Of a stretch of 21,461 nt of DNA, positions 16,301-18,091 are shown one piece after another. The stretch is from Deltaproteobacteria bacterium RBG_13_61_14 (GTDB lineage: Bacteria > RBG-13-61-14): the NCBI GenBank assembly GCA_001797815.1, contig MGQK01000063.1, positions 30,313 to 51,773 of the forward strand. The letters are read 5' to 3'. Made by a program: the position numbers and the translations under genes. The notes below the pieces were generated by a model. It did no database searches, had not been told where the DNA came from, and saw only the letters and a program-made list of their open reading frames with translations. The first letter of the stretch is position 1. Each line of letters opens with the position of its first letter.

Positions 16301-16318
16301 CGTGCACTGTTCACTTTT
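16271..16318. repeat. TTCAC/GTGCAC word repeat between pyrE and the TPR gene
   Basis: Short related words follow one another on the plus strand: TTTTCAC, TTTCCAC, TTTTTACT, GTGCAC twice (16295-16300 and 16302-16307) and TGTTCAC. It spans the pyrE stop and the proposed TPR start codon. Confidence 0.55.
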
Positions 16319-16883
16319 TCTCCCGGGCTGCAGCCTTGAGCTCCGTGGCCGTGAAGAGCGCGAACAGGGGATAGCCCTTGGCCGCCAGCGCCTCCCGGCC
16401 GCCCTCTTCCCGGTCCACCAGGGCCAGGACTTCCACCACCTTCGCGCCCTCGGCCTCCACCGCGGCGATCGCCTGCAAGGCCGAACCCCCTGTCGTCACC
16501 ACGTCTTCCAGGATGGCCACCCGGTCGCTCTTGCGCAAGTTGCCTTCGATTCGCCGGCCGGTGCCATGCCCCTTGGCTTCCTTGCGCACGATGAAGCCCC
16601 GGAGCGGCGATCCCGCGATCTGGCTCCTCACGATCAGGGCCGCGGCCATCGGGTCCGCGCCCAGGGTCAGCCCGCCCACCGCGTCCACCGGCTCCGGCAG
16701 GCCCTGGATGCGCTCGAGCAAAAGCCGCGCGGTCAGGTCGGCGCCCTCGGGGTCGAGGGTGGTGGTGCGGCAGTCCACGTAATAGTCCGAGGTCTTGCCC
16801 GAGGCGAGGGTGAAAGACCCAACCTGGAAGGAATTCCGGAGGATGACCGCTTGGAGCCTTTGTCGCATTTCCGGATAATTCAT
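16311..16883 (-). CDS. pyrE: Orotate phosphoribosyltransferase
   Basis: This 190-residue enzyme forms OMP from orotate and PRPP in pyrimidine synthesis. The PRPP-binding motif VAILEDVVTTGGSAL spans 122-136. Other typical parts are FTLASGKTSDYYVDCR (24-39), VGGLTLGADPMAAA, and FIVRKEAKGHGTGRRIEG. Length is normal. The ATG at 16883 overlaps the stop of the HEPN gene as ATGA, so its translation is probably coupled to the upstream MNT-HEPN genes. The C-terminal codons run into repeat DNA. Confidence 0.97.
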   Translation of the reverse strand: MNYPEMRQRLQAVILRNSFQVGSFTLASGKTSDYYVDCRTTTLDPEGADLTARLLLERIQGLPEPVDAVGGLTLGADPMAAALIVRSQIAGSPLRGFIVRKEAKGHGTGRRIEGNLRKSDRVAILEDVVTTGGSALQAIAAVEAEGAKVVEVLALVDREEGGREALAAKGYPLFALFTATELKAAAREKK

Positions 16884-17293
16884 TGAAGGTCCACTGGAAT
16901 CTGGTGAAGGATCGTTTCCCTAACTTTGCGCGCCGACTTAACCGCCTTCCTCGCATTCTCAAGAGTCAGCTCGGAGAGATCCCCCGGGTAACGGACATCC
17001 ACGCTGTAATCCGTCAACACGGTTGCTTCGCGCAGGGAATCCGCCAGCGGTTTATCCACCTTTGCCACCAGGTTGAGGAGCTCACCAATATCGTGAGTCT
17101 TGGGATACTCGACTTGATGCCAGACCAGAAAGGCTTTAAGAAATTTTTCTGCGGTTTGCTGGGCGTGGAAGGCGGCGATATCGGGGAAAGGCTCTCTTGC
17201 GTTAAGTAAGGCGGCTGCGGCGTTCAAATCGTTCTCGGCCTTTTGAATCCACTGCCGGGTGAATTCGCGTTTAACCTGCTCAGGCGGCTTCAT
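16880..17293 (-). CDS. HEPN-domain protein, partner of the MNT protein
   Basis: This 137-residue all-helical protein has typical HEPN features: WIQKAENDLNAAAALL (15-30), FHAQQTAEKFLKAFLVW (42-58), PKTHDIGELLNL (64-75) and VRYPGD (100-105). HEPN proteins next to MNT proteins act in several known pairs as toxins, often RNases, with the MNT partner as antitoxin. An R-x4-H pattern occurs at Arg125-His130 (RETILH) in the last helix, where the HEPN nuclease motif is expected; whether it is the active motif is unproven. The start overlaps the MNT gene by 14 bases, and the end overlaps pyrE by 4. Confidence 0.87.
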   Translation of the reverse strand: MKPPEQVKREFTRQWIQKAENDLNAAAALLNAREPFPDIAAFHAQQTAEKFLKAFLVWHQVEYPKTHDIGELLNLVAKVDKPLADSLREATVLTDYSVDVRYPGDLSELTLENARKAVKSARKVRETILHQIPVDLQ

Positions 17294-17600
17294 AGATCAC
17301 CCGGCCGTATTTGCTCGCAGGATAGGCGATTCCACCGATGACGTTTTTGCTCTCCTCAAAGTGCTCCATGGTCATGAGAAGAATATCAAAAGGATACCCC
17401 AAACTGCGCAGGGACTCGCGGATTTGCCTTCGCTCTTCGCGGGGATTAGCCAGCTTCGTTTTGATAATGAGAAGGTCAATATCACTGTCCCTGGTCATCC
17501 CACCGGTGGCCGCCGAGCCGAAGAGGATAATCCGGTCCGGCCGGGATACGCTAGTCACCCGCTGGATGATCTCCTCGCGCAATTTCTCATCAATCCCCAT
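17280..17600 (-). CDS. MNT-type nucleotidyltransferase (second, intact module)
   Basis: This 106-residue minimal nucleotidyltransferase has the GS-x10-DxD motif at Gly28-Ser29 and Asp40-Asp42 (DSDIDLLII) and a later acidic residue in FDILLM. MNT antitoxins of this kind can AMPylate or otherwise block their HEPN partner. The intact HEPN gene follows with a 14-base overlap. The ATG at 17600 is preceded by GGAAGGG about 11 bases upstream. The start lies inside the tail of the broken HEPN remnant. Confidence 0.88.
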   Translation of the reverse strand: MGIDEKLREEIIQRVTSVSRPDRIILFGSAATGGMTRDSDIDLLIIKTKLANPREERRQIRESLRSLGYPFDILLMTMEHFEESKNVIGGIAYPASKYGRVIYEAA

Positions 17601-17679
17601 GACGGCTCATTCCCTTCCGAGCTTTGAATCCCATCTTGGCCACCGCCAGCATCTGGCGCGCGTGCTCAAGGTCGCTCAT
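17590..17679 (-). pseudogene. Truncated HEPN gene remnant of the first module
   Basis: An ATG at 17679 overlaps the end of the first MNT gene by 14 bases, exactly as in the intact module. It encodes only 29 residues. They begin MSDLEHARQMLAVAKM and continue to KARKGM, which resembles the first helix of HEPN proteins. The frame then runs into the next MNT start region and stops at 17590. The HAQQ...EK core and the rest of the domain, roughly 100 residues, are missing, so this looks like an internal or 3' deletion. The short peptide might still be made. Confidence 0.7.
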
Positions 17680-18019
17680 AAAGCACCCTTCCCTCGCGGA
17701 GCGTCGTCGCAATGATATGGTTGATGGAATTCCGCCACTTCTCAAATTCCTTGATGCTGTAAACCAGGATGTCCTTCGGGATCTCAAAAGCCGACAAAGC
17801 CTCCCGAATCCGCACCAACTCCTCCAGCCGGCCGCGGCTTCCGCCAAATTCCTCCCGCTCCACAATCATCAAGTCTAAATCCGAATTCGGCCCGCCCCCG
17901 CCCCACACCAGCGACCCAAACAGGACGATCTTTTCCGGGTCCACCTCCCGGATAATGGCCTGAACCATCTCCTCCAGAACTTGGTCGTTGATCTCGATCA
18001 TGGGATTTACCTTGTCCAT
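17666..18019 (-). CDS. MNT-type nucleotidyltransferase (first module, orphaned)
   Basis: This protein of 117 residues has GS-x10-DxD at Gly35-Ser36 and Asp47-Asp49 (NSDLDLMIV) within IVLFGSLVWGGGGP, and a later IPKDILVY strand. It is only distantly similar to the second MNT protein, so the two modules are not a recent duplication. Its own HEPN partner, starting 14 bases before its stop, is reduced to a fragment, leaving a likely orphan antitoxin. ATG 18019 has AGG 7 bases upstream. ATG 18001 (MIEINDQ) has AAGG 8 bases upstream and is an equally good start. It is the first gene of the leftward run that reaches larE. Confidence 0.85.
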   Translation of the reverse strand: MDKVNPMIEINDQVLEEMVQAIIREVDPEKIVLFGSLVWGGGGPNSDLDLMIVEREEFGGSRGRLEELVRIREALSAFEIPKDILVYSIKEFEKWRNSINHIIATTLREGRVLYERP

Positions 18020-18091
18020 ATTTTAACCTGATTCCATTCGTCTTGCCAACCCCTTCCCGCCTAGCGGGCCTGCGAAATAAAATGGGGGCAA

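Follow-up and report, generated by a model that had tools for sequence, protein, structure and literature searches.

Class II modules, composed of a gene for a minimal nucleotidyltransferase (MNT) and a gene for a HEPN protein, are among the most common two-gene units in archaea and are also present in many bacteria. The HEPN protein is considered the toxin and the MNT an enzymatic antitoxin, an assignment that is mostly made by analogy with Class I. The locus described here raises the question of why an MNT gene is maintained when the HEPN gene that follows it is cut to 29 codons. We analyzed a stretch of 21,461 nt (the window) from Deltaproteobacteria bacterium RBG_13_61_14, positions 30313-51773 of contig C63 (MGQK01000063.1) in a draft assembly of 132 contigs that is 95% complete for a 4.7-Mb genome.

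Organization of the Locus

On the minus strand of the window, MNT1, the 29-codon remnant, MNT2, HEPN2, and pyrE follow each other in this order, with overlapping frames throughout:

18020..18049, minus strand: promoter-like site 5' of MNT1 (TTGGCA, 18 nt, TAAAAT), a consensus match only
17666..18019, minus strand: MNT1, intact minimal nucleotidyltransferase of 117 aa (111 aa from the ATG at 18001), GSx10DxD; GSLVWGGGGPNSDLD
17590..17679, minus strand: HEPN1 remnant, 29 codons, MSDLEHARQMLAVAKMGFKARKGMSRHGD; HEPN-derived from codon 1 to about codon 25 (17605-17679)
17601..17607, minus strand: approximate position of the deletion junction, with HEPN1 codon 24/25 on one side and the MNT2 start on the other, based on comparison with loci L010, L013, and L081
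17280..17600, minus strand: MNT2, minimal nucleotidyltransferase of 106 aa, GSx10DxD; GSAATGGMTRDSDID
16880..17293, minus strand: HEPN2, full-length PF05168 HEPN of 137 aa
16880..16883, minus strand: overlap of the HEPN2 stop and the pyrE start, ATGA
16311..16883, minus strand: pyrE, orotate phosphoribosyltransferase-like

A sequence-only reading of this DNA had described two tandem MNT genes, each overlapping a HEPN start by 14 nt, a full-length second HEPN, and a first HEPN of 29 residues running into the next MNT start. All of this was confirmed. In the first module, MNT1 stops at 17666 and the 29-codon frame starts with an ATG at 17679; in the second, MNT2 stops at 17280 and HEPN2 starts with an ATG at 17293. 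HEPN2 matched PF05168 with 101.5 bits (cut-off 22 bits), and the 29-codon frame terminates at 17590, 11 nt into MNT2, which has its ATG at 17598-17600. The true start of MNT1 is likely the ATG at 18001 rather than that at 18019, since relatives begin at 18001 and the -10 hexamer of the promoter-like site ends at 18020. One promoter-like site was observed upstream of MNT1, compared to a mean of 0.7 in shuffled sequences, and it is by itself no evidence of function. Because of its ATGA overlap with HEPN2, pyrE may be the final gene to be translated from the MNT/HEPN operon.

In the two genomes of the same taxonomic order that were compared for the ancestral context, pyrE is preceded by other genes, without MNT or HEPN. 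The GC content is 54-55% in the modules and 64-68% in pyrE and its neighbor. The lower GC content, together with the lack of the modules next to pyrE in these relatives, suggests that the MNT-HEPN modules arrived at the locus as mobile elements. No homologs of MNT1 were found in phages or viral contigs, and all plasmid matches had less than 40% identity.

The HEPN ATG lies within Tyr-Glu codons (T-ATG-A..) near the C-terminus of the MNT, and this embedding recurs in relatives of both modules, including L020, the nearest relative of module 2 (63% identity for MNT2, 50% for HEPN2). Given this recurrence, the 14-nt overlap is characteristic of the family, and two modules with equal overlaps need not have arisen by duplication, let alone a recent one. 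A recent tandem duplication was rejected on two grounds: MNT1 and MNT2 are only 34% identical, and single-module relatives exist for each of them separately (L010/L013 versus L020/L063).

Domain Content of the Modules

MNT1 and MNT2 matched PF01909 with 36.8 and 40.8 bits, respectively (cut-off 21 bits); PF18765 was matched by MNT1 with 33.4 bits and was also passed by MNT2. The GSx10DxD motif starts at residue 35 of MNT1 and residue 28 of MNT2. In MNT1, GS is followed by an unusual LVWGGGG, which makes its activity uncertain. The HEPN of L010, an intact homolog of HEPN1, reached 66.4 bits for PF05168, and the 29-mer alone was too short for any Pfam match. A search of HEPN2 and the L010 and L013 HEPNs for Rx4HxY, with the AMP-accepting Tyr, gave no match, nor was a canonical Rx4-6H found in the latter two. 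HEPN2 has a single Rx4-6H match (RETILH, residue 125) in its C-terminal part, away from the RYP region. Both the conserved Glu (QQTAEK) and the alternative His (KTHD) are retained in HEPN2; this His is present in HEPNs of both types as THD, IHD, or KHD.

By domain content, these sequences belong to Class II HEPN/MNT (PF05168/PF01909) and not to the demonstrated type VII system MntA-HepT. Class II corresponds to the HEPN-T family of Anantharaman et al. 2013 (PMC3710099) and was named in Yao et al. 2020 (PMC7641770). Our locus shares with it the upstream MNT, the downstream HEPN, the overlapping genes, the PF05168 match, the GSx10DxD of the MNT, and an alternative His in place of a conserved Rx4-6H (PMC3710099). 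It differs in that HEPN1 comprises 29 codons and an MNT without HEPN stands in tandem with a complete second module. MntA-HepT, the type VII toxin-antitoxin system of Class I (PF01934), is known from S. oneidensis (SO_3165/SO_3166; PMC7641770) and L. pneumophila (PMC11586414). The gene order and the GSx10DxD of the MNT are the same there, but Rx4HxY is missing from HEPN2 and from proteins of the HEPN1 type, and MNT1 and MNT2 remained below the cut-off of 60 bits for NCBIfam MntA_antitoxin NF047752 (23.0 and 31.4 bits). The modules may still act like MntA-HepT.

The predicted structure of MNT1 (mean pLDDT 66) had the MntA chain 6m6u as best PDB match (weak, E 1e-3) and also matched HI0073, modestly supporting a fold that resembles both; with matches this weak and a model this modest, we make no claims on the active site. 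The MNT1-type profile also matched a solved chain named Cmr1-MntA (PDB 9z7q, 9z7v, 9z7x), a hint of fusions between MNT domains and a type III CRISPR component.

The 29-Codon Frame Is a Remnant of a HEPN Gene

Relatives of MNT1 with an intact first module were found by a search of genome contigs. L010, from a Latescibacterota MAG, has an MNT with 55% identity to MNT1; a HEPN gene overlaps its end by 14 nt and encodes 145 aa, beginning with MSDIDDARLMQTKAKQDLSALRGM. In L013 the MNT is 46% identical to MNT1, and the HEPN starts with MNGIDHARRLIALALLDFQAMTNM at the identical 14-nt overlap. The frame in the window reads MSDLEHARQMLAVAKMGFKARKGM followed by SRHGD. The first 24 residues of both HEPNs match it, and the match ends at codon 24-25, a few bases 5' of the MNT2 start. 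From this comparison we placed the deletion junction at about 17601-17607.

A position-specific score built from 15 intact HEPN N-termini gave 20.3 bits for the remnant and 0.3 bits for the next best of the 1,130 start-codon frames in the window, and 0 of 200,000 shuffles reached the score of the remnant. These values ruled out a chance open reading frame. The matching HEPN start of the intact relatives likewise contradicts the view that the frame had never been part of a HEPN gene. Going by these matches, the 29-codon frame is a HEPN remnant. It has drifted at Asp17 and Leu21, which are near-invariant in the 15 intact N-termini, as would be expected for a decaying piece. The rest of HEPN1 was not found elsewhere in the locus, where all HEPN matches belong to HEPN2.

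Since the window derives from a draft assembly, the truncation might be an assembly chimera or a sequencing artefact. We consider this extremely improbable: the junction is well inside its contig, similarly precise HEPN deletions occur in unrelated assemblies, and there are pairs of genomes with a common junction.

Loss of One Partner Recurs in Latescibacterota

Sixty-four genomes of the phylum of L010, Latescibacterota, were searched with its MNT and with its HEPN, using similarity searches with fixed cut-offs in draft MAG assemblies, and the MNT1-type loci were classified. There were 14 intact MNT-HEPN pairs, 9 loci with MNT only (L009, L080, L083, L090, L089, L095, L096, L143, and L144), and 5 with HEPN and a broken MNT; L087 was cut off by a contig end. 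The HEPN stub has 11 codons in L009, 7 codons in L083 and L090, which have a common junction, and 18 codons in L095 and L096, which also have a common junction, while HEPN homology stops after about 36 codons in L089. On its right side, the L083/L090 deletion ends within what are the final HEPN codons in L081 and L084, and the deletion in L095 spares the stop codon that overlaps the start of the next gene. The MNT-only loci have at least six distinct junctions and thus represent at least six separate events, not including the window, if common junctions are taken once and L009 and L080 are taken as one. We counted by junction only because recombination between the halves of the MNT complicates trees.

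Partner loss goes both ways, as judged from these gene structures: one Latescibacterota subclade kept the HEPN and broke the MNT. In these loci (L109 to L112 and L115) the MNT is truncated or frameshifted, and four of the five have an intact HEPN frame of 132 aa. The HEPN is located at 164-562 in L109 (genome G134) and at 1501-1899 in L110 (G133); L111, L112, and L115 are from G135, G128, and G129, respectively. In L110 just the C-terminal ~33 residues of the MNT are left, as a possible small frame. A natural allelic series is found at one Latescibacterota site, located 5' of a 252-aa gene that is conserved: pairs, MNT alone, and HEPN alone all occur there (L009, L010, L080, L095, L096, L110, and L112).

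Among all HEPNs collected, the Glu in the FHxQQxxEKxxK helix was present in 56 of 56 other distinct proteins and was replaced by Ala in all five HEPNs without MNT (L109-L112, L115), for which dN/dS was 0.23-0.45. Anantharaman et al. 2013 (PMC3710099) describe Ex3[KR], with another conserved acidic residue situated near the active site of HEPNs; judging from the motif, the Glu would be this residue. The pattern fits the view that the HEPN is the harmful partner and that the MNT is dispensable only where the HEPN is disarmed. The Glu to Ala exchange probably occurred in one clade, and the association therefore statistically counts as one event.

Orphan MNTs Are Constrained After Loss of the HEPN

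As each of the pairs L095/L096 and L083/L090 has one common deletion, the divergence of their MNTs postdates the loss of the HEPN. Pairwise Nei-Gojobori comparison over about 110 codons, with an approximate binomial test, gave 12 synonymous and 5 non-synonymous changes for L095/L096 (dN/dS 0.11, p = 4e-5) and 22 synonymous and 9 non-synonymous changes for L083/L090 (dN/dS 0.12, p = 2e-7). Between MNTs that still have their HEPN, dN/dS was 0.03-0.26, a range that covers both values. Comparisons of MNT-only with paired loci were mostly as constrained as those between paired MNTs, and L143 versus L082 was constrained as well (dN/dS 0.17). On these figures, orphan MNTs of the MNT1 type in Latescibacterota are under purifying selection after loss of the HEPN. 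They also keep an open reading frame, whereas frameshifts in the orphan MNT of close strains would have spoken against the sequence-only reading. Its proposal of toxin decay with the antitoxin kept is thus supported by the intact relatives, the matching HEPN start, and the constraint on orphan MNTs. Repeated loss and selection on the surviving partner indicate, as read from the relatives, that the kept MNT is probably still useful.

The main rival to a function of MNT1 is that it is a neutral remnant that has not yet decayed, or a mere leader of the operon translating MNT2, HEPN2, and pyrE. A leader would agree with the uninterrupted overlap of frames between MNT1 and pyrE, and for MNT-only L144 versus paired L094 a dN/dS of 0.46 (p = 0.11) is indistinguishable from neutral evolution. 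The low values in the two pairs with a common deletion, the usually undiminished constraint in MNT-only versus paired comparisons, and the catalytic motif kept in MNT1 make this rather unlikely.

Candidate Targets of the Orphan MNT

MNT1 might instead serve as a second antitoxin for HEPN2, by cross-neutralization or in a heteromeric MNT complex. Of the HEPNs in the genome, HEPN2 most resembles the HEPN1 type (36% identity to the L010 HEPN), and with its gene in the operon of MNT1 the two would be co-translated. Moreover, four genomes (G121, G122, G147, and G148) have an orphan MNT alongside an intact pair of its own type. However, MNT1 and MNT2 share 34% identity, and orphans persist also where no close HEPN remains: G098, G130, G131, G132, and G140 have no close HEPN of the same type, the best one having an E value of 1e-11 to 1e-13 with 29-34% identity, or none being found at 1e-10. 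Protection against modules that arrive from outside is more consistent with such orphans than service to a partner in the same genome.

Mosaic MNTs bear on the same question. In L081, L083, L084, L086, L089, L090, and L106, DNA identity is 86-95% in the N-terminal half of the MNT and 60-78% in the C-terminal half, and the HEPNs differ. Since the N-terminal half is similar and the C-terminal half and the HEPN diverge between loci, the alignments suggest that the C-terminal half sets partner specificity, which would be swapped by recombination within the MNT. In Class I, the alpha-4 helix of MntA contacts HepT (PMC7641770). Partner specificity of this kind speaks against a back-up for HEPN2, which we regard as unlikely.

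A trans copy of HEPN1 was not found in the genome of the organism (95% complete). A HEPN on contig C90 that appeared to lack an MNT was rejected as trans partner, as a partly masked MNT lies directly upstream. The genome (G000) harbors about 24 places with MNT domains and 10 PF05168 HEPNs in 4.7 Mb, and further MNTs lack an adjoining HEPN, e.g., L050, L053, and L055. In a Class I module of the same genome (L046, contig C21, ~32450), an intact MNT overlaps by 4 nt with a downstream 31-codon frame, MSQGRRIWEIVERDLPPLQAAIEAMRKEIKE, which weakly matches the C-terminal end of PF01934 HepT alone (positions 101-120, E 0.096). This points weakly to a second toxin-gutting event in the genome.

A new substrate would also account for an MNT without HEPN: MNT1 could be a domesticated protein or small-molecule nucleotidyltransferase untied from the HEPN. 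MNT-HEPN modules have been proposed to give rise to regulatory or resistance enzymes by domestication (PMC3710099), and MNTs without HEPN are repeatedly kept under purifying selection. The unchanged domain architecture, the similarity of MNT1 to partnered MNTs over its whole length, and the lack of a conserved new gene neighbor argue against this, and we consider it quite improbable.

Discussion

The explanation that best accounts for the locus as a whole, with a probability of roughly 0.5, combines a two-module ancestry, deletion of HEPN1, and retention of MNT1 as a trans-acting anti-addiction antitoxin. One operon ahead of pyrE would formerly have held two Class II modules of different ancestry, MNT1-HEPN1 and MNT2-HEPN2. 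HEPN1 appears to have been deleted from about codon 25 on, so that the stub, whose HEPN origin is established above, is joined directly to MNT2. We infer that a tandem array suffered a deletion, and not that module 2 integrated into HEPN1. MNT1, by its sequence, stayed a full-length nucleotidyltransferase with the catalytic motif, and it would persist because it modifies HEPNs brought or left by related mobile modules. The stub is probably a residue, which may be retained because its first 14 nt double as MNT1 codons and because it would link translation of MNT1 to that of MNT2. We favor the anti-addiction role over a back-up for HEPN2.

No biochemical demonstration of neutralization by AMPylation for Class II HEPN/MNT was found in the literature consulted on these modules, and by analogy we infer that the Class II HEPN is a toxin neutralized by its MNT. 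More generally, but only tentatively, a stand-alone MNT may be a selected and recurrent end state, providing enzymatic immunity to HEPN modules or having a new AMPylation target. It would be reached many times by deletions that start just past the MNT coding end, and the MNT would be lost only where the HEPN is disarmed by the Glu to Ala exchange.

Orphan antitoxins are well known. With HEPN1 cut to 29 codons beside an intact MNT1 and no cognate toxin elsewhere in the genome, MNT1 is a case of this kind. The kind is already known, and the recurrence is the interesting part. An anti-addiction role has been proposed for orphan antitoxins (Klebsiella survey, PMC7192599; review, PMC7354431), and as in our locus the antitoxin-like gene outlasts its cognate toxin. 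Those cases are of types II and IV, whereas our locus has an enzyme as antitoxin and still carries the toxin stub; in relatives, moreover, post-loss selection was measured and is purifying. The open-access literature, which leaves most subscription journals outside, yielded nothing specific on orphan MNTs beside a remnant of a HEPN or on HEPN pseudogenes, and the locus would add an enzymatic example of orphan antitoxins.

The series of pair, MNT-only, and HEPN-only loci, together with MNT-less HEPNs that lack the acidic residue, provides an evolutionary argument for the assignment of HEPN as toxin and MNT as antitoxin in Class II. The same series of losses supplies natural variants for testing this assignment.
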